Assembly (NCBI RefSeq): GCF_003014555.1
Contig: NZ_PYGE01000006.1
Location: 62,001 to 126,000, forward strand
DNA from: Haloactinopolyspora alba
GTDB taxonomy: Bacteria > Actinomycetota > Actinomycetes > Jiangellales > Jiangellaceae
Direction: 5' to 3'
DNA length: 64,000 nt
Shown here: piece by piece, positions 2,005 to 62,880 of the stretch
Layout of the letters: each line of letters opens with the position of its first letter
Numbering within the stretch: the first letter of the stretch is position 1
Program-made: the position numbers and the translations under genes
Notes under the pieces: model-generated
The model's input: only the letters and a program-made list of their open reading frames with translations
What the model was told of the DNA's origin: nothing
The model's database searches: none

Positions 2005-4113
2005 TCAGCCGACGCCGGCCTCGTGCATCCCGCGCAGCTCCTTCTTGAGCTCGGAGATCTCGTCCCGCAGCCTGGCCGCGAGCTCGAACTGCAACTCCCC
2101 CGCCGCCGTGTGCATCTGCTCGGTGAGCTGCTGGATGAGCTGGGCGAGATCGGCCGCGGGCATACCCGCCAGTTCGGCGGCGTGCTTTCCGGTCTCGGAC
2201 GTGCTCTTCAACCCCGGCACCGGCGTCTTGCCCCGGCTGGCGGTACGACCCGAGCCGCTCATGAGCTCGTCGGTGTCGGCGTCCTCACGGGCCAGCAGCT
2301 CCGTGATGTCACTGATCTGCTTGCGCAGCGGGGTGGGGTCGAGCCCGTGCTCGGTGTTGTACGCCATCTGCTTCTCGCGGCGCCTGTTCGTCTCGTCGAT
2401 GGCGTTGCGCATCGACGGCGTGATCGTGTCGGCGTACATGTGCACCTGCCCGGACACGTTGCGGGCCGCACGGCCGATGGTCTGGATCAGCGACGTGCCG
2501 GACCGCAGGAACCCTTCCTTGTCCGCGTCGAGGATGCTGACCAGCGACACCTCGGGCAGGTCGAGCCCCTCGCGGAGCAGGTTGATGCCGACCAGCACGT
2601 CGAAGTCACCCAGCCGCAGCTCACGAAGCAGCTCCACACGGCGCAGCGTGTCGACCTCGCTGTGCAGGTAGCGCACCTGCACGCCCTGCTCGAGCAGGTA
2701 GTCGGTGAGGTCTTCGGCCATCTTCTTCGTCAGCGTGGTGACCAGCACCCGCTCGTCACGCTCGGAGCGGGTGCGGATCTCGTGCAGGAGGTCGTCGATC
2801 TGTCCCTTGGTGGACTTCACCACCACCTCGGGGTCGATCAGCCCGGTGGGCCGGATGATCTGCTCGACCACGCCTTCGACCTTGTCCAGCTCGTACGGGC
2901 CCGGTGTGGCCGACAGGTAGACCGTCTGCCCGATGCGCTGCAGGAACTCCTCCCACCGCAGCGGACGGTTGTCCATCGCGCTGGGCAGCCGGAACCCGTG
3001 GTCGACCAGGGTGCGTTTGCGGCTCATGTCGCCCTCGTACATGCCGCCGATCTGCGGGACGGTCACGTGGGACTCGTCGACGACCAGCAGGAAGTCGTCC
3101 GGGAAGTAGTCGAGCAGACAGTTCGGCGCGGACCCCGGCGGGCGGTCGTCCATGTGCCGGGAGTAGTTCTCGATGCCGGAAGTGAACCCGACCTCGCGCA
3201 TCATCTCGATGTCGTAGCTCGTGCGCATGCGCAGCCGCTGCGCCTCGAGCAGCTTGCCCTGCCGCTCGAACTCGGCCAGCCGCTCCTCGAGCTCGGCCTC
3301 GATGCCGTCGATGGCGCGCTGCATGCGTTCGGGACCGGCGACGTAGTGGGTGGCGGGAGCGATGTAGGTCTCGTTCTCGTCACGGACGATCTCGCCGGTG
3401 AGCGGGTGCATGGTGACGATGCGCTCGATCTCGTCACCGAAGAACTCGACCCGGACCGCGAGCTCGTCGTACATCGGGATGATCTCGAGCGTGTCGCCGC
3501 GGACCCGGAAGGTGCCGCGGGTGAGGTTCTGGTCGTTACGCGTGTACTGCACCTCGACCAGGCGGCGGAGCAGCCCTTCGCGGTCCTGCTCGGAGCCGAC
3601 CTTGAGGTGGACCATCCGGTTCAGGTACTCGTCGGCGGAACCGAGACCGTAGATGCACGACACCGTCGCGACCACCACCACGTCGCGCCGTGTCAGCAGC
3701 GACCAGGTGGCGGAGTGCCGCAGCCGTTCGACCTCCTCGTTCACCGAGGAGTCCTTCTCGATGTAGGTGTCGCTCTGCGGAACGTACGCCTCGGGCTGGT
3801 AGTAGTCGTAGTACGAGACGAAGTACTCGACCGCGTTGTTCGGCAGCAACCCGCGGAACTCGTTGGCCAGCTGTGCCGCCAGCGTCTTGTTCGGCGCGAG
3901 CACGAGCGTCGGCCGCTGCAGCCGCTCGATCATCCATGCCGTGGTCGCGCTCTTGCCCGTTCCGGTGGCGCCGAGCAGCACGACGTCCTTCTCGCCCGCG
4001 TTGATGCGCTGTTCGAGCTCGTCGATGGCTGCCGGCTGATCGCCGGACGGATCCCAGTCGCTGACCACCGAGAACGGGGCCACCGTCCGGGTCAGGTCAC
4101 TCGCAGCACGCAT
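2005..4113 (-). CDS. uvrB: UvrABC system protein B
   Basis: A 702-residue DNA helicase-like damage-recognition subunit of nucleotide excision repair. It shows the Walker A motif GATGTGKS, the beta-hairpin region [15 protein letters not shown], the helicase motif DESHV and the C-terminal UVR domain that contacts UvrC ([17 protein letters not shown]). The ATG at 4113 ([14 protein letters not shown]) matches the usual actinobacterial N-terminus; an upstream TTG would add ten unneeded residues. It stands alone, between terC and a MocR gene on the same strand. Confidence 0.98.
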
Positions 4114-4176
4114 ACCGACCACCGTATGCGTCGCCACCGACAACGTCGCACCGTGTTCGCGCCCGGCACCACCACG

Positions 4177-5580
4177 TCACAGGCTCTCGACCACGATCCG
4201 CAGCGCCCGTTCCAGCTGCTCGCGCCGCGCCGGCGCGGCGTAGCCGATCGTGACGCCGGTCAGCTGCGGCGGACCGTCGAAACAGCGGCGTAGCCCCTCC
4301 ACCCGCACGCCCGCGTCCAGTGCCGTCGCGACCAGGCGGTGTTCGGCCTCGGCGTCCGGCAACGGCACGGTCACGTGCGCGCCCGCCCGGTCGCCGCGGA
4401 CCCGCAGCGCCGCACCCGTCAGCCGCTGCACGACGAGCTCGCGCCGGGCGGCCAGCTCACGTCGGACCCGGCGCAGGTGCTTGGCCAGGTCACCGGTCTC
4501 GGCCATGGCGGCCACCACGCGCTGGCCCGCGCCGGGCGGACGCAGCCCCGCCGAGTCGCGCCGGCGCACGACCCACTCGGCCACGTCGGGCGGGGCCACC
4601 ATCCAGCCCGCGCCGAGCGTCGGCGAGATGATCTTGCTGGTGGTTCCCAGCTGGACGACCACGTCCGGCCCGATCGCGGCCAGCAGCGGAAGCGGCGCCA
4701 CGTCGTAGCGCAACTCGCCGTCGTAGTCGTCCTCGATGATCCGGGCGCCGTGCCGGCGCGCCCACTCGACCAGCGCGATCCGTCGTGCCGCCGGCAACCG
4801 TCCGCCAAGCGGGAACTGGTGCGCGGGCGTGCAGTACACGGCGTCGACGTCGACCGGAAGGGCGTCGACGACGATGCCGTCCGCATCGACGGGCGCCGGT
4901 ACGACCCGGGCGCCCGCGGCCCGCAGCGCGGCCACGGCCCGCTGGTACCCGGGCTCCTCCACCGCGACCGTGCACCCGTGCCCGAGGACGGCGCCCAGCT
5001 CCATCGCCGCGGCCGTCGTGCCGGCCGTGGCGAGCACCGAACCGCCGCGGACCGCGAGCCCACGGTGCCTGAGCAGGTGCTCGGCCACCGCCTCCCGGTA
5101 CTGCGGATCCCCGTCCCGGACCGGGACGGAGTCGGGTGAGACGTCGGCGGCACGCCGCCACGCCCGTCGCCACACCGCGGGGAGCAGGCCGTCCGCCCAC
5201 GGGGACCCGACCCCCAGGTTCACCATCTCCCGCCCGCACCGGCCGGGCGCACGGCCGGACGCCACACCGGCACCGGCGCCCGCCTCCGGGTGGTCTGCGG
5301 CGTCGCGCGCGCCCACCGCCCCGGACGCGCCGGGGACGGCCGCCACGAACGTCCCGGCGCCGTGCCGCGCGACGATCCATCCCTCGGCGTAGAGCTGCTC
5401 GTACGCCGCTGCCGTCACCGTGCGGCTGACCAGCAACGACCGCGCCAGCAGCCGGGTGGACGGCAGCCGCTCGCCCACCCGCACCACGCCGTGGGCCGCC
5501 GCGTCGCGGAGCTGGTCGGCGATCTGGCGGGACAGCGGCCGCGGATCGGCGCGGTCGACGGCGACAGGGACCTCGGGCAT
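4177..5580 (-). CDS. MocR/PdxR-type transcriptional regulator (GntR HTH + aminotransferase fold)
   Basis: A 467-residue protein with an N-terminal GntR winged helix (residues about 10-75, including SRQIADQLRDAAA and VSRTVTAAAYEQLYAEG). A type-I PLP aminotransferase-like domain follows, with IIEDDYDGELRYD and the PLP-lysine region LGTTSKIISPTLGAGW. MocR regulators bind PLP and often activate a divergent vitamin B6 or amine metabolism gene while repressing themselves. Here the divergent gene encodes a pyridoxamine-phosphate-oxidase-fold protein, so that gene is the likely target. Confidence 0.9.
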   Translation of the reverse strand: MPEVPVAVDRADPRPLSRQIADQLRDAAAHGVVRVGERLPSTRLLARSLLVSRTVTAAAYEQLYAEGWIVARHGAGTFVAAVPGASGAVGARDAADHPEAGAGAGVASGRAPGRCGREMVNLGVGSPWADGLLPAVWRRAWRRAADVSPDSVPVRDGDPQYREAVAEHLLRHRGLAVRGGSVLATAGTTAAAMELGAVLGHGCTVAVEEPGYQRAVAALRAAGARVVPAPVDADGIVVDALPVDVDAVYCTPAHQFPLGGRLPAARRIALVEWARRHGARIIEDDYDGELRYDVAPLPLLAAIGPDVVVQLGTTSKIISPTLGAGWMVAPPDVAEWVVRRRDSAGLRPPGAGQRVVAAMAETGDLAKHLRRVRRELAARRELVVQRLTGAALRVRGDRAGAHVTVPLPDAEAEHRLVATALDAGVRVEGLRRCFDGPPQLTGVTIGYAAPARREQLERALRIVVESL

Positions 5581-5607
5581 CGGCGGGATGGAAGTGGCCT
5601 TCTCGAA

Positions 5608-5624
5608 TGGACGCAGAGTGGACG
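5608..5624 (+). promoter_or_regulatory. Candidate MocR operator (direct TGGACG repeats)
   Basis: TGGACG occurs at 5608-5613 and 5619-5624, so the copies are 11 bp apart, one helical turn. They lie in the intergenic strip between the divergent MocR gene and its partner. MocR regulators commonly bind direct repeats. Assignment is by position and spacing only. Confidence 0.4.
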
Positions 5625-5661
5625 TTCAATGATGCCACACACGCGGGGCAGGATCGGCGGC

Positions 5662-6351
5662 ATGACGCACACGCCCACATCCGTCAGCACCGGCGCCACG
5701 CCGCTGTCGTCCACGCCCCGGAGCACCGTGCGCCGCGGTCACAAGCGGTCGCGGACCGACCGAGCGGCCCTGTACGACGTCCTCGACTCGTGCCTGATCT
5801 GCCACCTGGGACTGGTCCGCAACGGCGCGCCCGTCGTCCTGCCGACCGTGTACGGGCGCCTGGACGACGTTCTCTACCTGCACGGATCCACCGGCGCCGC
5901 CAGCCTGATCGCCGCGGCGGACGGTGCGCCGGTCAGTGTCGCGGTGACCCGGCTGGACGGGATCGTCTACGCACGGTCGGTCTTCCACCACTCGATGAAC
6001 TACGCCAGCGCCGTCGTGCACGGAACCGCCTCGCCGGTGACCGAGCCGGCCGCGAAACGCGAGGCGCTACGTGTGGTCACCGAGCACGTCGCCCCGGGTT
6101 CGTGGGAGCACGCGCGCCTGCCGACGCGCAAGGAGCTGGCCGCCACCGCCGTGCTCGCGCTGCCGCTGGACGAGGCCTCCGTCAAGCTGCGTTCCGGGCC
6201 GCCGAACGACGACGACCCCGACGTAGCCGGACACGAAGGCTGGGCGGGGGTGCTGCCGCTGCGCCGGCACTGGGACGCGCCGCAACCGTGTCCGCTTCTC
6301 GCCGACGGCACACCGGTACCGCCGCACGTCGCCGGTCGTGACCTGCCCTGA
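5662..6351 (+). CDS. Pyridoxamine 5'-phosphate oxidase-fold flavin/nucleotide-binding protein
   Basis: About 229 residues of the split-barrel flavin-binding family. It reads CLICHLGLVRNGAPVVLPTVYGRLDDVLYLHGSTGA, then VSVAVTRLDGIVYARSVFHHSMNYASAVVHGTA, typical of actinobacterial PNPOx-family proteins paired with MocR regulators. The ATG at 5662 follows AGGATCGGCGGC; another ATG at 5632 is possible. The real substrate is unknown, and F420, FMN or haem-binding relatives share this fold. Divergent from the MocR gene and probably controlled by it. Confidence 0.85.
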   Translation: MTHTPTSVSTGATPLSSTPRSTVRRGHKRSRTDRAALYDVLDSCLICHLGLVRNGAPVVLPTVYGRLDDVLYLHGSTGAASLIAAADGAPVSVAVTRLDGIVYARSVFHHSMNYASAVVHGTASPVTEPAAKREALRVVTEHVAPGSWEHARLPTRKELAATAVLALPLDEASVKLRSGPPNDDDPDVAGHEGWAGVLPLRRHWDAPQPCPLLADGTPVPPHVAGRDLP

Positions 6352-6372
6352 GCCGGGGCAACCGAGGTGATG

Positions 6373-7551
6373 TCACGGCCGCCAGCCGACCCGTTTCGCC
6401 CAGGCGTCCGCCCGCTCGAGCATCGCATTGATCCACGACGTCTTCGCGGCCGCGTACTCGTCGACGGATCCGTACCCTCGCGCAGCCAGGCGGCGCTTCA
6501 GCGCGGCGTACTCGGCGCCGTCGTCCGGCGCGGCGCGCAGCCGGTCACGCAGCAGCAGCGCGTCGCGCCAGGCCGGTGACGACTCCGGCCGGATGTGACA
6601 GTTCACGGCTCGCGCCGGGTCGGCGTTGCACGCCAGCTCTTTGTCCCACGCGCGCCCGTCCCGGCCGACGTCCCACCAGCGGTCCGGCATCCGCACCAAC
6701 CCGGCCGCCGGCAACGCGCCGGCCACCTCGACCGCTGTCGCCAGGTCGGCGACGACGATCTGCAGATCGACGACGTTCTTGGCAGCGAGTCCGGGAACCG
6801 CCGTCGAACCGATGTGATCGACGCGCAGCGCCGACTCTCCCGCCACTCGGAGCACCCGCTGGGCCATGCGGTGCGCGTCATCCGCCCACGACGGGTCCGG
6901 CTCGGCGATCACCACGTGCTCCGGACGCGCCGCACGCACCCCCGCGCGCAGGTTCGCCTCGAACGGCACCACCCGGTCGTGCCACAACCGATCGAGCGTT
7001 TCCACGGTCCGCTCCGGCGGGCCCGAGTTGTCCAGCCAGACGTCGGCCACGGCACGCCGGTCCGCGTCCGTGGCCTGAGCGGCGATGCGGGCACGGACAT
7101 CGGACGCGCTCATGCCGCGGTCGGCGACCAGCCTTCGCACCCGCGTCTCCTCGTCCGCGTGCACGACCAGGACCAGCGGATACGACGGCGCCAACCCGTT
7201 CTCGACCAACAGCGGGATGTCCTCGACCACCACCGCCGCCGGCCCGGCCTCGTCGACCAACTGCTCGCGTCGCCGGTACACCAGCGGGTGCACGATCGCG
7301 TTCAGCGCCCGGCGGCGTTCGTCGTCGTCGAAGACGATCCGGCCGAGCCGCGACCGGTCGAGTGCGCCGTCGGCGTCCAGCACCTCGGTGCCGAACTCCG
7401 CCACGACGGCCTCCAGACCGGCGGTCCCCGGTTCCACCACCTCGCGGGCGATCCGGTCCGCGTCGATCAGCGTCGCGCCCAGCTCGTCCAGACGACCGGC
7501 CACCGTCGACTTGCCCGCGCCGATGCCGCCGGTCAGCCCCACTCGCAACAC
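6373..7551 (-). CDS. coaE: Dephospho-CoA kinase fused to GrpB/UPF0157 domain
   Basis: 392 residues. The N-terminal half (1-200) is CoaE, the last enzyme of CoA synthesis, with the P-loop GGIGAGKST, the DADRIAREVV motif and the lid/base region RIAAQATDADRRAVADVWLDN. Residues about 210-385 form a GrpB/UPF0157 nucleotidyltransferase-like domain (VIAEPDPSWADDAHRMA, VDHIGSTAVPGLAAKNVVDLQIVV). To my knowledge the fusion is normal in actinobacteria, including Mycobacterium, and the role of the second domain is uncertain. Confidence 0.96.
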   Translation of the reverse strand: MLRVGLTGGIGAGKSTVAGRLDELGATLIDADRIAREVVEPGTAGLEAVVAEFGTEVLDADGALDRSRLGRIVFDDDERRRALNAIVHPLVYRRREQLVDEAGPAAVVVEDIPLLVENGLAPSYPLVLVVHADEETRVRRLVADRGMSASDVRARIAAQATDADRRAVADVWLDNSGPPERTVETLDRLWHDRVVPFEANLRAGVRAARPEHVVIAEPDPSWADDAHRMAQRVLRVAGESALRVDHIGSTAVPGLAAKNVVDLQIVVADLATAVEVAGALPAAGLVRMPDRWWDVGRDGRAWDKELACNADPARAVNCHIRPESSPAWRDALLLRDRLRAAPDDGAEYAALKRRLAARGYGSVDEYAAAKTSWINAMLERADAWAKRVGWRP

Positions 7552-24683: not shown

Positions 24684-25919
24684 ATGGCGCGGCTGGCTCG
24701 GCAGGTCCGGAACGCCGGGCTCGGCGGCCCCGCGGGCGTGCTCGCCGTCGGCACGAGCCTGGCCAACGGGCTCGGCTACGTCCTGACGGTCGTCGGTGCC
24801 CGGCGGCTCGGCCCTGCGGAGTTCGGTGCGTTCAGCGCGCTGCTGGCGCTGATCGTCGTCGGCAACGTCGCCGCGCTGGCGATCCAGGCCACGACGGCCA
24901 GGGCGGTGGCGACCGGACGGCCCGCCGCCCCGCCGGTGCGTGCCGGTCTCGCCGTGGCCATGGTGCTCACCGCGGCTCTCGCGGCCGTGAGTCCGCTGCT
25001 CCGCGAGGGGTTGCATCTTCCGTCCGTGGTGGCGGCGATCGCCGCGGCCGTCGCGATCGGCGGCCTGGCGGTCGCCGCGCCCTCACTGGGGATCGTCCAG
25101 GGGCGTGAGCGTTTCCGGCTGCTGGCCGCGCTGCTCGCGATCCAGGCCGCGCTGCGGGTGGGCGGCGGGCTCGTCGGGATCGCGATCCGGCCCACCGCGA
25201 CCGCCGGACTGATCGGTATCGCTGCCGGGTTCGTCCTCGCCGCCGTCGTGGCCTGGACGGTCGCCCGCCCGGCCGCGGCCGGGGCGCGCTCGCCGGCCCT
25301 GCGCGCGACGCTGTCGTCAGGTGCCTTGCTGTTGGGTTTCGTGGTGTTGACGAACGTCGACGTGATGCTCGCGCGGCACGTCCTGCCGGCGGATGCCAGC
25401 GGCCTGTACGCGGCCGGCTCGATCTTCGCCAAGGTCGTGTTCTGGCTGCCGCAGTTCGTCCCGATGCTGGCCTTCCCGGCCATGACCGACCCGGCCCGAC
25501 GGCGCGGCGCCGTCACGCTGGGTGTCCTCGCGGTCGCCGCCAGCGGCGGCGTTCTGACGTTGCTGGCATGGCTGTTCTCGGACACCGCGGTACTGCTGGT
25601 CGCCGGGGACGACTACGCGGAGCTGGGCCCGTGGGTGCCCGGGTTCGCCGCGCTCGGCGCCCTGTACGCGCTGGCCCACGTGCTCGTCTACGCCCACCTG
25701 GCGCGCGGTGACCGCTGGACCACCGCCGTGCTCTGGACCCTGCTGGTCGGCTATGTCGTGGTGGTCGAGACCACGGCCGCGTCGCTGGCGGACGTCCTCG
25801 TCCCGGGCCTGGTCACGGCCGGCGCCGTCGTCTGCTGGGGGCTGCTGCGCGAACAGGCGGCATTCACCCGGTTCGTCACCCCTGCGCGCCACCGGCACCA
25901 TCACCCCGACCAGAGGTGA
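24684..25919 (+). CDS. Polysaccharide/lipid-linked oligosaccharide flippase (Wzx/MVF type)
   Basis: 411 residues with about 12 membrane segments. Near the N-terminus GTSLANGLGYVLTVVGARRLGPAEFGAFSAL is a typical MOP-superfamily (oligosaccharide flippase) opening. NVDVMLARHVLPADASGLYAAGSIFAKVVFWLPQ is the conserved region of repeat two. AGGATGG precedes the ATG. Divergent from the GT-C-like gene, it probably moves the lipid-linked glycan made by this locus across the membrane. Confidence 0.85.
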   Translation: MARLARQVRNAGLGGPAGVLAVGTSLANGLGYVLTVVGARRLGPAEFGAFSALLALIVVGNVAALAIQATTARAVATGRPAAPPVRAGLAVAMVLTAALAAVSPLLREGLHLPSVVAAIAAAVAIGGLAVAAPSLGIVQGRERFRLLAALLAIQAALRVGGGLVGIAIRPTATAGLIGIAAGFVLAAVVAWTVARPAAAGARSPALRATLSSGALLLGFVVLTNVDVMLARHVLPADASGLYAAGSIFAKVVFWLPQFVPMLAFPAMTDPARRRGAVTLGVLAVAASGGVLTLLAWLFSDTAVLLVAGDDYAELGPWVPGFAALGALYALAHVLVYAHLARGDRWTTAVLWTLLVGYVVVVETTAASLADVLVPGLVTAGAVVCWGLLREQAAFTRFVTPARHRHHHPDQR

Positions 25920-40909: not shown

Positions 40910-40986
40910 GGCCCGGTAGGCAAATTGGCAAAGCCGCCGCACTCAAAATGCGGTGTGTGTCGGTTCGAGTCCGACCCGGGCTACCA
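40910..40986 (+). tRNA. tRNA-Leu(CAA), probable phage attachment gene
   Basis: The 77-nt cloverleaf reads: acceptor GGCCCGG/CCGGGCU with a G1-U72 wobble, D-arm GGC/GCC, anticodon stem CCGCA/UGCGG with loop CUCAAAA, five-nt variable loop UGUGU, T-arm GUCGG UUCGAGU CCGAC, discriminator A, encoded CCA. Anticodon CAA reads UUG (Leu). The short variable loop is odd, since bacterial tRNA-Leu is normally class II with a long variable arm. The integrase gene begins downstream, so the 3' half is the likely attachment core. Confidence 0.85.
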
Positions 40987-41062
40987 GCGAGAACACCAGA
41001 ATCCGCACCCATCTCAATGAATGCCAGTGAGCACATAGTGAGCAGGGCTCCCCACGGCAGCC

Positions 41063-42199
41063 CTACGCCGCGTCGTCCTCGACCTCGGCCTCGGCGACCT
41101 TGCTGAGCCGCTGCGCAAGATCGACAACGTCACCGTCGAACAGGTCGGCGTAGACGTTCAGCGTCATGGCCGCGTCCTTGTGGCCGAGCATCTTCTGGAC
41201 GGCGAGCACCGTGGCCCCGCTCGCCACGGCCAGGCTGGCCGCCGTGTGCCGGAGGTCGTACGGCACCAGCGGATCGACGCCGGCCTTCGCCGCCGCCGGC
41301 TTGAATACCTTGCGTGCCCACTCGACGATCCGGAGCCGCATGCCCCGCGGCGAGCGGAACAACGGCTCGTCGGGCGAACGGCCATTGCGATCGTCGAGCA
41401 TGACCCCGAGCTTGTTGGCGACGAACTCGGGCAGGCGGATCGTGCGCCGCTCGTGCGTCTTCGTCGGACCGAGAATCAGCTTGCCGCCGACTGTCGAGTA
41501 CGCCTTGACGACACGAATGGTGCCCTTCTTCCGGTTGAAGTCCCGCTCATTGAATGCGGCCACCTCGCCCGGACGCGGCCCGCAGTAGGCCATCAGGTAG
41601 ATCAGCGCCTCTGTCTCTCGGCCGCGCTCTGGCGTGGGCTCAACGTCCCGCGCCGTCTCGGCGAGCAGGTGCACATCCTCCGCGTCGAGGTATCGGTGCT
41701 CCCGCTCCCTCTCCCTGGCCGGAATCTTCGGCAGCTTGCCCGACCGGTCGCGCACCGGGTTGCGCGGGAGTCGGTCGTCGGCGACGGCCGCATCGATCAT
41801 CCGCACGAACTGCTTGGCCGTGTCGTTTCGAGTCGTGTCGCCGACCGGGCCGCCTTTCGCTCCTTGCATGGTCCGCACCCACTTGACGAAATCTTCGCGT
41901 GCGATGCGCTTGAGCGGCACGCCATCCCAGACCAGTGCGATGCGCTTCTGCCGGTCGTCGTAACCGGCCCTCGTCTTGTCGCTCACCTCGAGCTGGTCCA
42001 GCCACATCGGGTACCACTCGCCCACAGTTATTTTCGCGCGCGCGGGGTCGGTCCAGTCCTGCCTCTTCGCGGACTCCTCTTGCTTTTCTGCCTCGGCCAG
42101 CGCGTCCCGCTTCCGCTTGAACACGGCGGTCGCCTTGAGGTCGCCGTCCACCCTGTACCGTCCGATGTGCCCGCCCGTGCGTGGCTCGGTGTACGCCAT
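41063..42199 (-). CDS. int: Tyrosine recombinase (phage integrase)
   Basis: 378 residues. The N-terminal arm-binding region (GGHIGRYRVDGDLKATAVFKR) is followed by a SAM-like core-binding domain (TVGEWYPMWLDQLEVSDKTRAGYDD). The catalytic domain has Arg in MAYCGPRPGEVAAF, H-x-x-R in YDLRHTAASLAV, LGHKDAAMT and the nucleophile Tyr in LNVYADL. The ATG at 42199 follows AGGAGCGCGAG. It lies next to the tRNA-Leu gene and is separated from xis by a strong terminator and an AT-rich dyad. Confidence 0.96.
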   Translation of the reverse strand: MAYTEPRTGGHIGRYRVDGDLKATAVFKRKRDALAEAEKQEESAKRQDWTDPARAKITVGEWYPMWLDQLEVSDKTRAGYDDRQKRIALVWDGVPLKRIAREDFVKWVRTMQGAKGGPVGDTTRNDTAKQFVRMIDAAVADDRLPRNPVRDRSGKLPKIPAREREREHRYLDAEDVHLLAETARDVEPTPERGRETEALIYLMAYCGPRPGEVAAFNERDFNRKKGTIRVVKAYSTVGGKLILGPTKTHERRTIRLPEFVANKLGVMLDDRNGRSPDEPLFRSPRGMRLRIVEWARKVFKPAAAKAGVDPLVPYDLRHTAASLAVASGATVLAVQKMLGHKDAAMTLNVYADLFDGDVVDLAQRLSKVAEAEVEDDAA

Positions 42200-42253
42200 C
42201 TCGCGCTCCTCTCGTCGCTTCGACTGCCGCCCTGGCGGTCGATTCCTTGACGA

Positions 42254-42270
42254 TATACAGACTTTGTATA
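42254..42270 (-). promoter_or_regulatory. AT-rich dyad at the int promoter
   Basis: TATACA (42254-42259) and TGTATA (42265-42270) are exact inverted halves around 5 bp, in an otherwise GC-rich region 55-71 bp upstream of int. It may contain the int -10 element and an operator, or be an arm-type integrase site. Confidence 0.5.
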
Positions 42271-42272
42271 CA

Positions 42273-42314
42273 CGCAGCCCCACGCCGGGACCATGTCGAT
42301 GGCGTGGGGCTGCG
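42273..42314. terminator. 14-bp stem terminator between xis and int
   Basis: CGCAGCCCCACGCC (42273-42286) pairs perfectly with 42301-42314 across a 14-nt loop. It lies 14 bp after the xis stop on the minus strand and would keep early leftward transcription from reaching int. Confidence 0.7.
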
Positions 42315-44350: not shown

Positions 44351-44723
44351 CGAGCAGCCCCTTCCGCAGGCGCTGAGCCTCGAGCCAGTACGTCTCGGCA
44401 GTCCCGTTCCGGTACCCCCGCCAGCGGTCGCAGGCGTATATGGGCGGCACTCCCCACGACTCGGCCAGCCCTTCCATGCGCTGGATGTGCTCGGTCAGGC
44501 GCTCACGCCAGCCCGCGTCAACGATCAAGCCCTCGCCGACCTGGAGGTCGATGACGTGGTCGCGCATGTCCTGTAGCTCCTGGCGAGCGCGAGCCGCCTC
44601 CTCGAACCAGAAGTCGCGCTGCTCCGTCAGGTCGTCGACCCGCCGCATCAGGCGGTCCTCCCGCTGCTCGGCTCTCGTCAGGTCCACGGTGAGCTGCATC
44701 GCCTCATCAGTCGCGGGTCTCAC
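44343..44723 (-). CDS. Hypothetical phage protein with coiled coil
   Basis: 126 residues from a GTG at 44723 that shares a base with the upstream TAG stop. The N-terminal half is a long coiled coil (LTRAEQREDRLMRRVDDLTE). The C-terminal half holds GVPPIYACDRWRGYRNGTAETYW. No family recognised. One of the four 13-bp TGYACTAGTGAGA sites covers its start. Confidence 0.6.
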   Translation of the reverse strand: MRPATDEAMQLTVDLTRAEQREDRLMRRVDDLTEQRDFWFEEAARARQELQDMRDHVIDLQVGEGLIVDAGWRERLTEHIQRMEGLAESWGVPPIYACDRWRGYRNGTAETYWLEAQRLRKGLLGE

Positions 44724-44730
44724 TAGTGCA
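44718..44730 (-). promoter_or_regulatory. 13-bp junction site TGCACTAGTGAGA, copy 4
   Basis: On the minus strand TGCACTAGTGAGA spans the TAG stop of one gene and the GTG start of the next. The other copies are at 53108, 54410 and 54887, all in the same orientation. Confidence 0.5.
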
Positions 44731-44971
44731 CTCCGATCGCATTCATGTCGTTGTGCGCGTGCCGAGACTGGCTCGTCAGGTGCCAGCCCTCGCATGCGCC
44801 GCACTCGTAGTAGCGGTTCTCCACGTACAGCCCTCGGCGCGTGCCGTGGGCGTCGGCCTTCCGGCGCCGGCTCGTCTGGCTCCGACCGAGCGCCTTCTCA
44901 GCGTCCCGCTCCGTGGCGAACGACCTCTTGCCGGCCTCGTGGCACCAGGTGGATTCAACTCGACGGCTCAC
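44723..44971 (-). CDS. Small basic phage protein, possible zinc finger
   Basis: 82 residues from GTG 44971. The pattern C-x-x-C-x-x-x-H in YYECGACEGWHLTSQ with an upstream Arg/Lys-rich stretch (GRSQTSRRRKADAHGTRRG) suggests a nucleic-acid-binding zinc ribbon. Similar short proteins occur in many actinophages. Function unknown. Confidence 0.65.
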   Translation of the reverse strand: MSRRVESTWCHEAGKRSFATERDAEKALGRSQTSRRRKADAHGTRRGLYVENRYYECGACEGWHLTSQSRHAHNDMNAIGVH

Positions 44972-51575: not shown

Positions 51576-52577
51576 TCAGACGGTGGCCAGCAGGCGCAAC
51601 GTGTCGGCGTCGAGCTTGTCGACGCCTCCGGAGATGGCGCGCTCCATGTTTCGCTCGGCGCGCGACGCGCCCCGCACGGTGCCCATGTGATGGGTGTGCG
51701 TGTTCACCGCCGACAGCACGCCGAACGCGGTGCCGCGCCACGGCGCCACCCGTTCGTCATGGTTGTACAGCCGCCGCAGCTCACCGGCCTTGCGATCCGC
51801 GATGGACTGACCCCGCTTGGAATCACCACCGTCACCGACGTGAGCCGCCAGGAACCGCGACCACTGGTCGTCCGTCACGGTCTGCCGCGTCAGCGCTTCC
51901 ACCTGTTCGGCGAAGTCGTCGGCCACGGCGTGCACGATGCCGAGCGCGTCACGCACGTCACCGATCTTGCGGAGGCTGTTCACCGAGTGCTTGACCTTGA
52001 CCCGGTTCGCGCTCTCACCGAGCGCAGCAGACAGGGTGTTGTCACAGACAACCACTTGCACGCCCGTCTGATAGGTCGTGGCCATTGACCCGTCCATGGA
52101 CGTAGCAGCCGTGAGGAACGGCCGGTACTCCACGCCCTCGGTCTTGAGGGTGTCGGCCATCTCCACCTGCACCCACGCCACGGCCCCACCCTTGAGCAGG
52201 CCAGCAGAGCCGACCGCAAGGTCAGCATCGAGCAGGGTCTCTACGTTGTGCACGAGCCACTCGTCGTACTGGTGGATGCGGTACCCGCTCTTGAAGATGC
52301 CGAGAATCGCGCTCGTGTCGCTGCGCATGATTGCCTTGCGGTCCGGGTCGGTCATCGACAGGACGCCGTCAGGGGTCAGTGCCGACGCCGAGATCTCGCC
52401 CTCGATGGCGGTCCAGTCGAACAGCCGACGCCGAACGTCAGCCACCGGCACGGGTCCGGGGTAATGGTTCGACTCGTCGCCCTGCTCTTCGGCTCGGTAG
52501 TGCCACGCCGTACCCCGCTTGTCGGTGTATCCGATCAGGGTCTGCGTGTTGAGCCACGTGCTGGTCTCTTGCGACAT
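51576..52577 (-). CDS. DUF932/TIGR03299 phage-plasmid-like protein
   Basis: 333 residues from the ATG at 52577, preceded by GGAGAGGAGAAAG. TLIGYTDKRGTAWHYRAEEQ, then LGIFKSGYRIHQYDEWLVHN, LLKGGAVAWVQVEMADTLKT and VVVCDNTLSAALGESANRVK with KVKHSVNSLRKIGDVRDALG are typical of the DUF932 family found on phages and plasmids; function unknown. Its leader carries copy 1 of the two-hairpin RNA motif, ending 22 nt before the ATG. Confidence 0.85.
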   Translation of the reverse strand: MSQETSTWLNTQTLIGYTDKRGTAWHYRAEEQGDESNHYPGPVPVADVRRRLFDWTAIEGEISASALTPDGVLSMTDPDRKAIMRSDTSAILGIFKSGYRIHQYDEWLVHNVETLLDADLAVGSAGLLKGGAVAWVQVEMADTLKTEGVEYRPFLTAATSMDGSMATTYQTGVQVVVCDNTLSAALGESANRVKVKHSVNSLRKIGDVRDALGIVHAVADDFAEQVEALTRQTVTDDQWSRFLAAHVGDGGDSKRGQSIADRKAGELRRLYNHDERVAPWRGTAFGVLSAVNTHTHHMGTVRGASRAERNMERAISGGVDKLDADTLRLLATV

Positions 52578-52598
52578 GGTGACTTTCTCCTCTCCGGT

Positions 52599-52658
52599 GG
52601 CAGGCTCCTCAGGCGTGGCATGCCAAGCCACGCGACCGGGCATGGCCCGGTTTCGCCA
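52599..52658 (-). ncRNA. Two-hairpin leader RNA motif, copy 1
   Basis: 5'-GGCGAAA, then P2 ACCGGGC/GCCCGGT with a 3-nt loop, then P1 GCGTGGC/GCCACGC around loop TTGGCAT, then GCCTGCC-3' (minus strand). It ends 22 nt before the DUF932 ATG, with the ribosome binding site in between. Copies 2 and 3 keep the pairing while changing the stem bases. Confidence 0.7.
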
Positions 52659-52665
52659 GGGGGGG

Positions 52666-52869
52666 TCAGATGGAGTCCAGATAGCGCTCGTAGGCGAGCG
52701 TCAGCGCGGCCGACGCCTCACGCGGGTCAAGGTCGCCAACCAGCACGCGCAGTGCGTCACTCATTCCGCGTAGGTAGGCGCGTCCAACCGGCCTGTAGTC
52801 CTCTCGCTGCTCGGCGTCGGCAGCGTCAGCCAGCGCCCGCACCTGCCACTCGCGGCCCTCGCGGATCAC
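52666..52869 (-). CDS. Small hypothetical phage protein
   Basis: 67 residues from GTG 52869, which overlaps the upstream stop (GTGA). Helical and charged (WQVRALADAADAEQREDYRP, YLRGMSDALRVLVGDLDPRE). No family recognised. Its stop lies 8 bp before the copy 1 RNA motif. Confidence 0.6.
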   Translation of the reverse strand: MIREGREWQVRALADAADAEQREDYRPVGRAYLRGMSDALRVLVGDLDPREASAALTLAYERYLDSI

Positions 52870-53024
52870 CGATCCATCACCAGCCGCGCCGGGGCAGGGT
52901 CGGCCATCTCGAGATTCACGACGACGCGGTCAGTGCTCGTGTTGGTGCACCATGCGGAGTCCTCGCCGCTCGCCGGGCAGGCAGGCAGCACGGCCACCAG
53001 CAAGGCAGTAAGTAGCTCGATCAT
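52866..53024 (-). CDS. Small secreted or anchored phage peptide
   Basis: 52 residues from the ATG at 53024 (IELLTALLVAVLPACPASGE). The N-terminus looks like a short signal peptide; two cysteines (residues 16 and 26) could form a disulfide or, less likely, a lipid anchor. GAGAGGAAG precedes it. Copy 2 of the two-hairpin motif ends 21 nt before the start. Unknown function. Confidence 0.55.
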   Translation of the reverse strand: MIELLTALLVAVLPACPASGEDSAWCTNTSTDRVVVNLEMADPAPARLVMDR

Positions 53025-53044
53025 GGTTCGCTTCCTCTCGTCTC

Positions 53045-53105
53045 GGCAGGCTCGTCAGCCGTGGCATGCCAAGCCACGGGACACACCGCGCGGGTGTGTT
53101 TCGCC
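53045..53105 (-). ncRNA. Two-hairpin leader RNA motif, copy 2
   Basis: Same layout as copy 1 on the minus strand, but P2 is ACACACC/GGTGTGT with a 5-nt loop, and P1 is CCGTGGC/GCCACGG. All P2 pairs except the first A-T are changed or re-paired relative to copy 3, and the outer P1 pair is swapped G-C to C-G. It ends 21 nt before the ATG at 53024. Confidence 0.7.
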
Positions 53106-53107
53106 GC

Positions 53108-53120
53108 TCTCACTAGTGCA
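53108..53120 (-). promoter_or_regulatory. 13-bp junction site TGCACTAGTGAGA, copy 1
   Basis: Lies just after the stop of the 53122 gene and directly before the copy 2 RNA motif. CTAGG precedes it here and at 54410, so the shared string extends to 18 bp. Confidence 0.5.
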
Positions 53121-53121
53121 C

Positions 53122-53664
53122 CTAGGCAGCACGCCATGCCGTCCACGTCACGGCTTGCATTTGCCCGGCAGTTACGCCACCCACGGCGTCCGCCGCACGC
53201 CGATAGGCACGGGCGAACCGGTCGTACATGCCCTTGCGTGCGAGCGCTTGCCGTGCTGCGTCACCGGTCTTGCGGCCGACCGCAATGTCAAAGGCGTGAC
53301 GGTCGATCACGACACCGGCATGAGAGTCAGGCTCGAGAATCGCAAGGTAGAAATTCCTGACCTTGTCGCCGCGCAGCACGGCCAGCGGGTCAGCGCCGGA
53401 CAGAATCGCGTCCGCCTTAGCGACGTTGTCTAGCAACGCGCCGCTCGCATAGCCACGCGCCACGGCGTCGGATGCAAGGGCCTTGTTCCGCCCCCACGGC
53501 ATCCGTGGCGACAGTGCAGCCAGCACGCCGACCGCCGTAGGGACATCATCGGTCAGGGATGCCGCGAACTCATGCGCGTCTCGATACCAGCGCATGCCGT
53601 CGGACCGTTCGGCCGACGTCGCGCGTTCATACACGCGCAAGACATTAGGCGTGGTGGGTCGCAA
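53122..53664 (-). CDS. Uncharacterised actinophage protein (DUF7178-like?)
   Basis: 180 residues if started at TTG 53664, which has GAGAGGA at good spacing (GTA precedes the TTG, so no earlier start is near). Conserved-looking blocks are VGVLAALSPRMPWGRNKALA, KVRNFYLAILEPDSHAGVVI and DRHAFDIAVGRKTG. These match an uncharacterised family of actinophage proteins, DUF7178 from memory. The helix-rich layout with a conserved D-R-H faintly recalls HhH glycosylase folds, but I cannot support an activity. Its leader carries copy 3 of the RNA motif. Confidence 0.7.
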   Translation of the reverse strand: MRPTTPNVLRVYERATSAERSDGMRWYRDAHEFAASLTDDVPTAVGVLAALSPRMPWGRNKALASDAVARGYASGALLDNVAKADAILSGADPLAVLRGDKVRNFYLAILEPDSHAGVVIDRHAFDIAVGRKTGDAARQALARKGMYDRFARAYRRAADAVGGVTAGQMQAVTWTAWRAA

Positions 53665-53687
53665 TACGGTTCCTCTCGGTGTGAATT

Positions 53688-53749
53688 GGCAGGCATCATC
53701 AGGCATGGCATGCCAGGCCATGCGACGGCGCATTGTGCGCCGTTTCGCC
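53688..53749 (-). ncRNA. Two-hairpin leader RNA motif, copy 3
   Basis: P2 here is ACGGCGCA paired with TGCGCCGT (8 bp, 3-nt loop), and P1 is GCATGGC/GCCATGC around loop CTGGCAT, flanked by GGCGAAA and GCCTGCC. The third P1 pair is A-T in place of G-C. It ends 24 nt before the TTG at 53664. Confidence 0.7.
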
Positions 53750-53754
53750 AGCTG

Positions 53755-54360
53755 TCAGGAATGCTTGCGGATCACGTCCAGCAATTCGCGCGCCAGCCCC
53801 GGATCGACGTTGTTGACCTCTAGGTGCATGCGCGAGCCGTCACTATTGGTGATGACCTCCCCGCGCGGACCGTCCTTGCCGAACGTGCCGAACATGGCAG
53901 CGGCTTTGTGGTCGCTTTGCCAATGCGACGGCCGCGAAGGGTTGTCCATGCGCGAAACAAGCGATTCCATCACCGCATCACGCCGCCCTATCGCGTCACG
54001 GTGAGCCGCTAGAGCGGCCTTGCCGCGCGCCATTTCGTCGCGGTACGTCGGCAGAACTCGGCGCACAATCTCTCGCGCCACCGTGGCCGCGCCACGATTC
54101 ATGGCGACGGTGATCGTAGGGCTCTCCAGTCGTGGCGATGCCTGTCGCGCGGCAGCGAGATCATGCACGCCGTAGATCTCGACACGGCCCGGCCGGTTGT
54201 CGGTCAGAATGGCAATGCGCTCACCATTCGGCCCGTACAAGTCGAGTCCCCGATAGCGGATCTCGGCGTCAGCGGACCATGCGCCGTCGGTCAGGCTCGC
54301 CAGCTCACGCGCCACGGCGTGGCCAAGCTCGCGGACCTCTAGGCGCCGTTCGTCGATCAT
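53755..54360 (-). CDS. Hypothetical phage protein
   Basis: 201 residues. EIRYRGLDLYGPNGERIAIL, then VEIYGVHDLAAARQASPRLE, AREIVRRVLPTYRDEMARGK and the C-terminal LEVNNVDPGLARELLDVIRK. A beta-rich first third and a helical remainder; no family recognised. Its 89-bp leader has a GTGCC/GGCAC hairpin and a 13-bp junction site. Confidence 0.7.
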   Translation of the reverse strand: MIDERRLEVRELGHAVARELASLTDGAWSADAEIRYRGLDLYGPNGERIAILTDNRPGRVEIYGVHDLAAARQASPRLESPTITVAMNRGAATVAREIVRRVLPTYRDEMARGKAALAAHRDAIGRRDAVMESLVSRMDNPSRPSHWQSDHKAAAMFGTFGKDGPRGEVITNSDGSRMHLEVNNVDPGLARELLDVIRKHS

Positions 54361-54409: not shown

Positions 54410-54422
54410 TCTCACTAGTGCA
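54410..54422 (-). promoter_or_regulatory. 13-bp junction site TGCACTAGTGAGA, copy 2
   Basis: In the gap between the genes at 54450 and 53755. It sits inside a larger GGTCTC/GAGACC inverted repeat (54409-54440) and is preceded by CTAGG as at 53108. Confidence 0.5.
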
Positions 54423-54449
54423 CCTAGCCATGGCGAGACCCCCGGCATG

Positions 54450-54833: not shown

Positions 54834-54903
54834 TGAGTGCCCCGGATTCGAACCGGGCGACCAATGGCCGGACCGTCACACTCTGATCTCACTAGTACAT
54901 TCA
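54834..54903 (-). other. tRNA-like remnant (T-arm and weak acceptor)
   Basis: On the minus strand CCCGG-TTCGAAT-CCGGG (54857-54841) is a perfect T-arm. GCACTCA after it can pair six of seven with TGAATGT at 54903-54897. The D and anticodon arms do not fold convincingly, although a CCG (Arg) triplet sits about where the anticodon would be. It overlaps the stop of the gene at 54901 and contains a 13-bp junction site. Probably a decayed tRNA gene or an imitation. Confidence 0.35.
54887..54899 (-). promoter_or_regulatory. 13-bp junction site TGTACTAGTGAGA, copy 3
   Basis: Just after the stop of the gene at 54901. One substitution (C to T at position 3) from the other three copies; same orientation relative to transcription. 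Confidence 0.45.
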
Positions 54904-60787: not shown

Positions 60788-61210
60788 ATGCCTGGCCCGA
60801 CACCGAAGCGCTCCGAGGAGCGCCGTCGCCGCAACCAGCCCGAAGGCGTGCAGGTCACCAAGGGCGAGGCCATGCCCGTCACGTGGGACATCGAGCCCGA
60901 CGTGAACTGGCACCCGATCGCGCTCCGGCTGTACGAGAGCGCAGCCACGTCCGGCCAGTCCCGCTACTACCAGGACACCGACTGGGCGCTGCTGTACTCG
61001 CTCTGCGACGACTTGAGCCACTACAAGAACTCGCGCGTCCGGTCCGGGCAGATGCTCCAGTCGATCATGACGGCGCTCCAGAACCTCATGCTCACCGAGG
61101 GCGACCGGCGCCGGCTGCGCCTGGAGCTGGCCGAGCCCGAAGCGCCGACTGAACTCGCCTCCGTCACCGCCATCAACGACGCCCGAGCTGCGCTCGGCGT
61201 GGGCGAGTGA
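60788..61210 (+). CDS. Terminase small subunit
   Basis: 140 residues from the ATG at 60788 with GAGGAGGTGACCTGC upstream. PGPTPKRSEERRRRNQPEGV is the usual basic opening, followed by a helical core (WHPIALRLYESAATSGQSRY, YQDTDWALLYSLCDDLSHYK). It recognises phage DNA for packaging. Overlaps the large subunit by 4 bp. Confidence 0.85.
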   Translation: MPGPTPKRSEERRRRNQPEGVQVTKGEAMPVTWDIEPDVNWHPIALRLYESAATSGQSRYYQDTDWALLYSLCDDLSHYKNSRVRSGQMLQSIMTALQNLMLTEGDRRRLRLELAEPEAPTELASVTAINDARAALGVGE

Positions 61211-62880
61211 CGGGGCCGTTCGGTACCCCGACCCCCGAGCCCATAACCCCGGTCACCCTCGGCCCGACGTGGGAGAAGAACGAAGACGGCTCCTGGCGTC
61301 TGCCCGAGTACACGCTCGGCTGGGAGATTATCGGCTGGGTCGGGCAGTACCTCCGGACGCCCGAGGGCGGCCCGTGGCGATACACGCCGGAACAGATGCG
61401 CTTCATTCTCTGGTGGTACGCCCTCGACGAGCGTGGCGTGTTCGCCTACCGCACCGGCGTGCTCCAGCGCATGAAGGGCTGGGGCAAGGACCCGCTCTTG
61501 GCCACGATGGCCATTGTCGAGTTCGTCGGGCCGAGCCGATTCTCGCACTGGGGGCCTGGCGGCCAGCCGGTCGCGCGGCGCGTCGAGAGCGCCTGGGTCT
61601 CGATCGCCGCCGTTTCGCAGAGCCAGACCCGCAACACCATGCGCCTCCTTCCGTCGCTCATGTCGCCGGAACTGATCGCCGAGTTTGGCATCGACGTCGG
61701 CAAAGAGATCCTGTATGCGGCTGGCGGCCACATGCTCGAGGCGGTTACTTCCAGCTACCGCACGCTGGAGGGGAACCGCACCACTTTCACGATCCTGAAC
61801 GAGACTCACCACTGGGTTTCCGGGGTCGGCGGTCACGACATGATGGACGTGATCGAGGGCAACTCGACGAAGATGAACGCCCGGTGGCTGGCGATCACCA
61901 ACGCGTACATGCCGGGCGAGGACAGCGTCGCCGAACGCCACCGCGACGCCTACGTCCAGGTCGCCGAGGGCCGGGCGGTCGACACGGGCTTCCTGTACGA
62001 CACGCTCGAGGCTCCGGCCGACGCGCCGCTCACGGCAGAGGTCATTCCGCTCGTCCTCCGTGTGGTTCGCGGCGACGCGACCTGGCTGGACATCGAGGCG
62101 ATCACCAAGTCGATCCTCTCGCTGACACAGAGCCTCCAGCGCTCGCGCCGCATGTACTACAACCAGATCGTCGCCGACGAGGACGCGATCTACGGCGAAG
62201 ACCAGATCACGCCGCTGCTCTCGAAGCTCCTGCTCCAGGACGGCGACGAGATCGTGCTCGGCTTCGACGGGTCGAAGTCGCGTGATGCCACTGCACTAGT
62301 GGGACTTCGCTTGAGCGACCGCCTGGTGGTGCCGCTCGGAATCTGGGAGAAGCCGCTCGGCGAAGCCGGCGAGGGCTGGGAGGTCGACACCGAGGTCGTC
62401 GACTCGTTCGTGCATGAGGCGCACAGGCGCTTCCGGGTGCGGGCGTTCTACGCCGACGTCGAGCAGTGGGAGTCGTACATCGACTCCTGGTCTCGGCTGT
62501 ACGGGGAGAGCTACGCCGTGCGCCCGTCAAACAAGTCGGCCATCGGCTGGGACTTCCGCGGCTCGCAGCAGCTCGTCACGCGAGCCCACGAAGCCCTGGT
62601 GTCGAGCATCTTCAACGCCAGCCTGCGCATTGCCCGCAGCGCCAAGCCGCTTCTGGGCGGTCATGGCGACATCGGTGCGACGTTGCGCCGGCACATCCTC
62701 AACGCCCGGCGACGGGTGAACAACTACGGCCTGAGCTTCGGCAAGGAGAGCAAGGACAGCCCGAAGAAGGTCGACGGCTACGCCGCCCTGATGGCCGCAC
62801 ACCAAGCCGAGCACGACTACCACGAGCGCGGCCAGAAGAAGCCCACCGGAAAGCGCGCCGGCCGCGTCCACTTCACGTAG
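61207..62880 (+). CDS. Terminase large subunit
   Basis: 557 residues from GTG 61207. The ATPase half has TGVLQRMKGWGKDPLLATMA (Walker-A-like) and RTTFTILNETHHWVSG (Walker-B-like, Asn-Glu). The nuclease half has EIVLGFDGSKSRDATALVGL, RFRVRAFYADVEQWESYIDS and DGYAALMAAHQAEHDYHERG with the metal-binding aspartates. It powers DNA packaging and cuts concatemers. Confidence 0.93.
   Translation: MTGPFGTPTPEPITPVTLGPTWEKNEDGSWRLPEYTLGWEIIGWVGQYLRTPEGGPWRYTPEQMRFILWWYALDERGVFAYRTGVLQRMKGWGKDPLLATMAIVEFVGPSRFSHWGPGGQPVARRVESAWVSIAAVSQSQTRNTMRLLPSLMSPELIAEFGIDVGKEILYAAGGHMLEAVTSSYRTLEGNRTTFTILNETHHWVSGVGGHDMMDVIEGNSTKMNARWLAITNAYMPGEDSVAERHRDAYVQVAEGRAVDTGFLYDTLEAPADAPLTAEVIPLVLRVVRGDATWLDIEAITKSILSLTQSLQRSRRMYYNQIVADEDAIYGEDQITPLLSKLLLQDGDEIVLGFDGSKSRDATALVGLRLSDRLVVPLGIWEKPLGEAGEGWEVDTEVVDSFVHEAHRRFRVRAFYADVEQWESYIDSWSRLYGESYAVRPSNKSAIGWDFRGSQQLVTRAHEALVSSIFNASLRIARSAKPLLGGHGDIGATLRRHILNARRRVNNYGLSFGKESKDSPKKVDGYAALMAAHQAEHDYHERGQKKPTGKRAGRVHFT

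Follow-up and report, generated by a model that had tools for sequence, protein, structure and literature searches.

Predicted type II hammerhead ribozymes at three successive gene boundaries of a prophage operon in Haloactinopolyspora alba

We analysed a 64-kb stretch of the Haloactinopolyspora alba genome (the window) and found that three elements on its minus strand are almost certainly type II hammerhead ribozymes, as judged from their sequence. An earlier note had described them as a two-hairpin RNA motif; the three elements and their pairings were found where and as it described them, and its view that they represent an RNA structure that is under selection and covaries, is sense to the genes and belongs to the leaders of three transcription units of the prophage, held up. 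Its statement that no described family matches did not, as the elements belong to Rfam RF02276, the type II hammerhead of Perreault et al. 2011 (PMC3088659), with a complete core (GAA, CUGANGA and UC at the cleavage site). What it called P1 and P2 are stems I and III, respectively, and the GGC/GCC ends form the open stem II. With such a core, self-cleavage becomes the leading candidate role and would take the place of the RNase processing or protein binding proposed before.

The RF02276 model matched all three elements in a search of 1,251 bases. Copy 2 passed the cut-off of 37 bits (38.4 bits, match 53041-53106, E 5.8e-6), copy 3 was just below it (36.8 bits, 53684-53750, E 1.5e-5) and copy 1 was below it as well (28.0 bits, 52595-52658, E 0.0032). 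When the full window was scanned, copies 2 and 3 alone passed E = 0.1, so copy 1 needs a smaller search space or a closer model. A covariance model of 24 phage hammerheads, from which the window sequences were excluded (R2), scored copy 2 at 57.8 bits (E 1.6e-13), copy 1 at 57.7 bits (E 1.7e-13) and copy 3 at 49.6 bits (E 2.9e-11) over the whole 64 kb. The same model found no fourth copy in the 64-kb window; its next-best match (21.7 bits, 25162-25235) lies inside a predicted coding region and was judged a chance hit. Searching the whole host genome with another model (R1) returned only the three strong copies. The other matches in the genome were weak; one of them, L003, was rejected as a fourth copy because its Rfam score was 25.6 bits, the structural parser did not accept it and R1 missed it. 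Rfam revealed no other hammerhead type in the 64-kb window. Neither was there any indication of a riboswitch or aptazyme, since no conserved sequence was found outside the minimal hammerhead with its tail, nor any other credible Rfam match. The folding energy of the elements is mildly unusual (z between -1.7 and -2.2), and the signal resides in the conserved core, not in the folding energy. Similar hairpins can be folded from the plus strand; this reading was rejected, as both the genes and the hammerhead core belong to the minus strand.

Each copy is minimal (about 58 nt) and has the order GGC (stem II), GAA, stem III hairpin (A...U), C17, stem I hairpin, CTGA(G/C/T)GA and GCC. Stem II (GGC/GCC) is open, has 3 bp and lies at the element ends, while stem I (7 bp with a 7-nt loop) and stem III (7-8 bp) are both closed by loops. 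Stem III is formed by ACCGGGC/GCCCGGT in copy 1, ACACACC/GGTGTGT in copy 2 and ACGGCGCA/TGCGCCGT in copy 3, and stem I by GCGTGGC/GCCACGC, CCGTGGC/GCCACGG and GCATGGC/GCCATGC, respectively. The core is complete in all three, with GAAA accompanied by CTGAGGA (copy 1), CTGACGA (copy 2) or CTGATGA (copy 3). In every copy GUC closes stem III and represents the expected cleavage site, the cut being predicted after C17. At N7, a free position of the core, copy 1 carries a G, which is rare (3 of 301 distinct homologues among the matches listed). In copy 3 a single T is inserted before GCC and separates A9 from stem II, and a one-base insertion at this site is present in 48 of 301 distinct homologues among the matches listed; the minimum-energy fold of this copy differs from the hammerhead.

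In all three copies, GGCA of loop I can pair with a TGCC tail directly 3′ of stem II, and judging by the letters this is the pseudoknot described for type II hammerheads. The majority of type II hammerheads have such a loop I/tail contact, and in one metagenome-derived representative it is required for fast cleavage (PMC3088659). The earlier note had suggested that a palindrome in stem P1 could let the loops of two RNAs kiss; the palindrome and the conserved 3′ end are better understood as the two halves of this contact, an intramolecular arrangement supported across homologues. Among the matches listed, at least four Watson-Crick pairs can form in 56% of 301 distinct copies, compared with 24% when tails are permuted (highest permutation 29%). 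A UA/AU exchange was observed at column pair 39-58 of the homologue alignment (A1), which belongs to the pseudoknot, and other phages have different loop sequences with matching tails.

The three copies occupy successive boundaries of minus-strand genes. The gene at 53755..54360 (-) has no hammerhead of its own and its stop codon lies 5 nt before copy 3, which is transcribed first (53692..53749, -; predicted cut 53724 (C17)/53723). The TGCC tail of copy 3 (53688..53691, -) pairs with loop I CTGGCAT, with five Watson-Crick pairs possible counting TGCCA, and it is followed by a gene for a DUF7178 protein (53122..53664, -; PF23802, 3.8e-53) with a TTG start. This gene has phage homologues, some of which are annotated as 'DNA glycosylase'. 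Copy 2 (53049..53105, -; predicted cut 53080 (C17)/53079) comes next, its tail (53045..53048, -) making four Watson-Crick pairs with loop I TTGGCAT. It precedes a small ORF of 52 aa (52866..53024, -; translation MIELLTALLV...VMDR) and a second one of 67 aa (52666..52869, -). Copy 1 (52603..52657, -; predicted cut 52634 (C17)/52633) has its tail at 52599..52602 (-), where five pairs with loop I TTGGCAT are possible counting TGCCA, and is followed by a DUF932 gene (51576..52577, -; PF06067, 2.2e-37; phrog_1221, 2e-85). The distance from tail to start codon is 21 nt for copy 1 (ATG 52577), 20 nt for copy 2 (ATG 53024) and 23 nt for copy 3 (TTG 53664), which corresponds to 25, 24 and 27 nt from stem II. 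The gap between the upstream stop codon and the ribozyme is 16 nt for copy 2 and 8 nt for copy 1.

The window contains the left part of the prophage. A tyrosine integrase (41063..42283, -; PF00589, 7.2e-18; phrog_1) adjoins tRNA-Leu (40910-40986), a terminase is found at 61207-62880, and excisionase-like and regulator genes are also present. IMG/VR holds a provirus with identical sequence here, in a record of 51,746 bases whose start maps, by arithmetic, to about position 41060 of the window. Intergenic DNA of the prophage also contains a repeat, TCTCACTAGTGCACCTAG, exact at 53108-53125 and 54410-54427 and partial at 44718-44735 and 54888-54899 (0.03 expected by chance). Hammerhead copy 2 and the DUF7178 gene have one copy of it between them. 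Its appearance is that of an operator or promoter element.

The prediction of the earlier note that a model search would yield further covarying copies was borne out by many of them. A pattern search of viral contigs demanded only the core and stem II and not the pairing of stems I and III; both stems nevertheless form in 123 of 155 pattern matches among those listed, compared with 0.24% after shuffling of the hairpin letters. The structural parser recovered at least 355 hammerheads, at least 301 of them distinct. As the parser demands the stems, stem covariation on alignment A1 is partly given by construction, while neither the pattern test nor the pseudoknot test has this limitation. Two or more hammerheads, up to a maximum of eleven, occur in 60 of 116 loci among the matches listed, and copies in both orientations were not found, all hammerheads being on one strand in 60 of 60 multi-copy loci among the matches listed. 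A Shine-Dalgarno sequence with a start codon follows within 6-70 nt in 235 of 294 copies among the matches listed (median 24, quartiles 22-26); for random positions the figure is 21%, and for the antisense side 14%. Within the host's class, 4 of 297 genomes, the host among them, have a match at E <= 0.001, and two of the three non-host genomes have strong ones (46.5 and 44.8 bits), both directly before a start codon. We found no support for selection towards stem diversification within arrays (identity within loci 0.50 for stem III and 0.50 for stem I). On a 45-kb IMG/VR contig (L112), the type II hammerheads identified by the parser number eleven within 5 kb (2228-7189, about one per 450 nt). 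Only three of them reach E 0.01 with the Rfam model, and no similar record was found among named phages.

The best named arrays are those of the Arquatrovirinae Streptomyces phages R4, Hank144, Janus, TrvxScott, Spernnie and Caelum. Eight to eleven Rfam matches per genome were obtained for R4, Hank144, Janus and TrvxScott, and the records of these four phages contain no ribozyme annotation. The laboratory phage R4 has nine RF02276 matches, all above the cut-off and all on the minus strand, in the part of the genome from 41.8 to 49.5 kb; they are located at gene boundaries, mostly about 25 nt 5′ of a start codon. In four annotated Streptomyces phages the median gap is 16 nt from the upstream stop codon to the ribozyme and 25 nt from the ribozyme to the start, so that there is just enough room for a ribozyme between one ribosome that terminates and another that initiates. 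A hammerhead precedes the DUF7178 gene in all four Streptomyces phages examined and in none of four examined phages of other hosts (Microbacterium, Mycobacterium, Rhodococcus), and we therefore rejected a DUF7178-specific association. None of the DUF932 homologues examined has a hammerhead either, so the ribozyme is dispensable for these genes. In R4 and TrvxScott (e.g. R4 gp76 and gp81) some annotated starts lie inside or 5′ of a hammerhead. Since the hammerhead would remove the called 5′ end, start calls in these phages need correction; translation probably begins instead at the codon with a Shine-Dalgarno sequence, about 25 nt 3′ of the ribozyme. Repeated leaders of other kinds were also encountered. 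Rhodococcus phage Trogglehumper has CACTCACCGAATCAAGGGAGACACACGACATG and close variants, which are not hammerheads, before several of the consecutive genes 115-119, and Microbacterium phage RobsFeet has a TTAGGCTCTAGGTATAAGCC-like repeat before successive genes (about 5700-5735 and 5945-5975), possibly a promoter or start-associated sequence.

We propose that the three ribozymes act within one minus-strand prophage operon. Within the transcript each would fold so that its loop I contacts its TGCC tail, and would self-cleave 3′ of C17, at the junction of stems III and I. Cleavage in the cell appears very probable to us, given the intact core, the pseudoknot, the published cleavage of a triple array and the chemistry of hammerheads. 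As the type II cut falls between two closed hairpins, both products would receive a hairpin end. The stem III hairpin, carrying a 2′,3′-cyclic phosphate, would form the end of the upstream mRNA, and the downstream mRNA would begin with the stem I hairpin and a 5′-OH, its ribosome-binding site and start codon following 24-27 nt after stem II. The polycistronic transcript could thus be turned into single-gene or short mRNAs with structured ends resisting 5′ and 3′ exonucleases, and the level and translation of each unit would be set separately. Given the spacing, the ribosome-binding site is not part of the ribozyme, which makes its unmasking by cleavage less likely than segmentation. That segmentation and end protection are the selected benefit is less certain than cleavage itself, and for the account as a whole (hammerheads, cleavage and this benefit) we put the chances only somewhat above even. 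Loop III has no catalytic role, and among the perfect tetraloop hairpins of stem III, 61 of 107 have GNRA or UNCG loops, compared with a calculated value of about 5% for random tetraloops; the median hairpin energy is -12.4 kcal/mol for stem III and -11.5 kcal/mol for stem I. Such stable tetraloops would favour protected ends, which is support but not proof, and they could serve only fast folding.

Self-cleavage might instead be a regulated switch, whose speed is set by upstream translation, by Mg2+, or by a small molecule or a protein that binds RNA, and which shifts expression between lysogeny and induction. The elements do sit at the ribosome-binding site of each unit, and with a median gap of 16 nt after the upstream stop a terminating ribosome could hinder folding. 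We nevertheless regard a switch as unlikely, because the elements are minimal, about 58 nt, and have no extra conserved aptamer-like sequence near the core. Somewhat less likely still is cleavage with another aim, for example to hide 5′ ends from nucleases or defence systems of the host; segmentation would then be a by-product. The presence of hammerheads near anti-restriction genes, namely ardA (PMC3088659) and an OCR-like antirestriction gene in R4, would fit this idea, but ribozymes of R4-type phages precede many unrelated genes, so no single gene accounts for them.

Two further explanations do without a function of the RNA. The copies in the window have loop I and most of stem I in common and probably go back to one ancestor, as would be expected of duplicated, non-functional or selfish leftovers retained by recent descent alone. 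Their stem III sequences, however, are wholly different and still form pairs in every copy, none of the three has lost its core, and the placement is tight across at least hundreds of copies, so we consider this very improbable. A DNA-binding site on the palindrome TGGCATGCCA, with RNA folding incidental, would explain why all three copies contain it. Yet the palindrome is accounted for by loop I and the first pairs of stem I, other phages have other loops with matching tails, and together with the hammerhead core this leaves a DNA site scarcely credible.

The kind of hammerhead and its clustering in prophages are already known. A 2011 paper described clusters that flank genes of prophages (PMC3088659), and a review of 2017 lists the role of prokaryotic hammerheads among open questions (PMC6155905). 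As to a link with aminoglycosides, one paper notes no more than their binding to a hammerhead (PMC9239200). New here are the many phages with one ribozyme per gene boundary, and R4 with nine. We found no paper on such one-per-gene arrays, or on R4 as a test system, in the open-access literature, though one may exist. R4 infects S. coelicolor A3(2), and its nine above-cut-off, single-strand copies at gene boundaries make the purpose of phage hammerheads genetically testable with catalytic-dead mutants. Tentatively, and with less confidence than we would need to favour it, the Arquatrovirinae and some other phages may rely on hammerheads, one at each gene boundary, as a general system that cuts early operons without protein and gives individually stabilised mRNAs. 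If so, a whole genome region would be expressed through ribozyme-made 5′ ends, and the prophage in the window would be a three-copy version.

Compared with known systems, the three elements share with RF02276 (Hammerhead_II) the open stem II, the closed stems I and III, the GAA and CUGANGA core, the NUH site, the pseudoknot of loop I with the 3′ tail and the clusters of copies flanking prophage genes. Nothing essential differs, only the G at N7 of copy 1 and the extra base before stem II of copy 3. The ardA array of Agrobacterium tumefaciens likewise has three hammerheads at successive gene boundaries and self-cleaves in E. coli (PMC3088659); its host belongs to another phylum and its genes are different, and cleavage was seen there, whereas here it is predicted from sequence. 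The arrays of Arquatrovirinae resemble the window in being type II, on the sense strand only and about 25 nt before start codons, and Janus and TrvxScott share the hammerhead before the DUF7178 gene, but they comprise eight to eleven Rfam matches per genome, compared with three in the prophage of the window.
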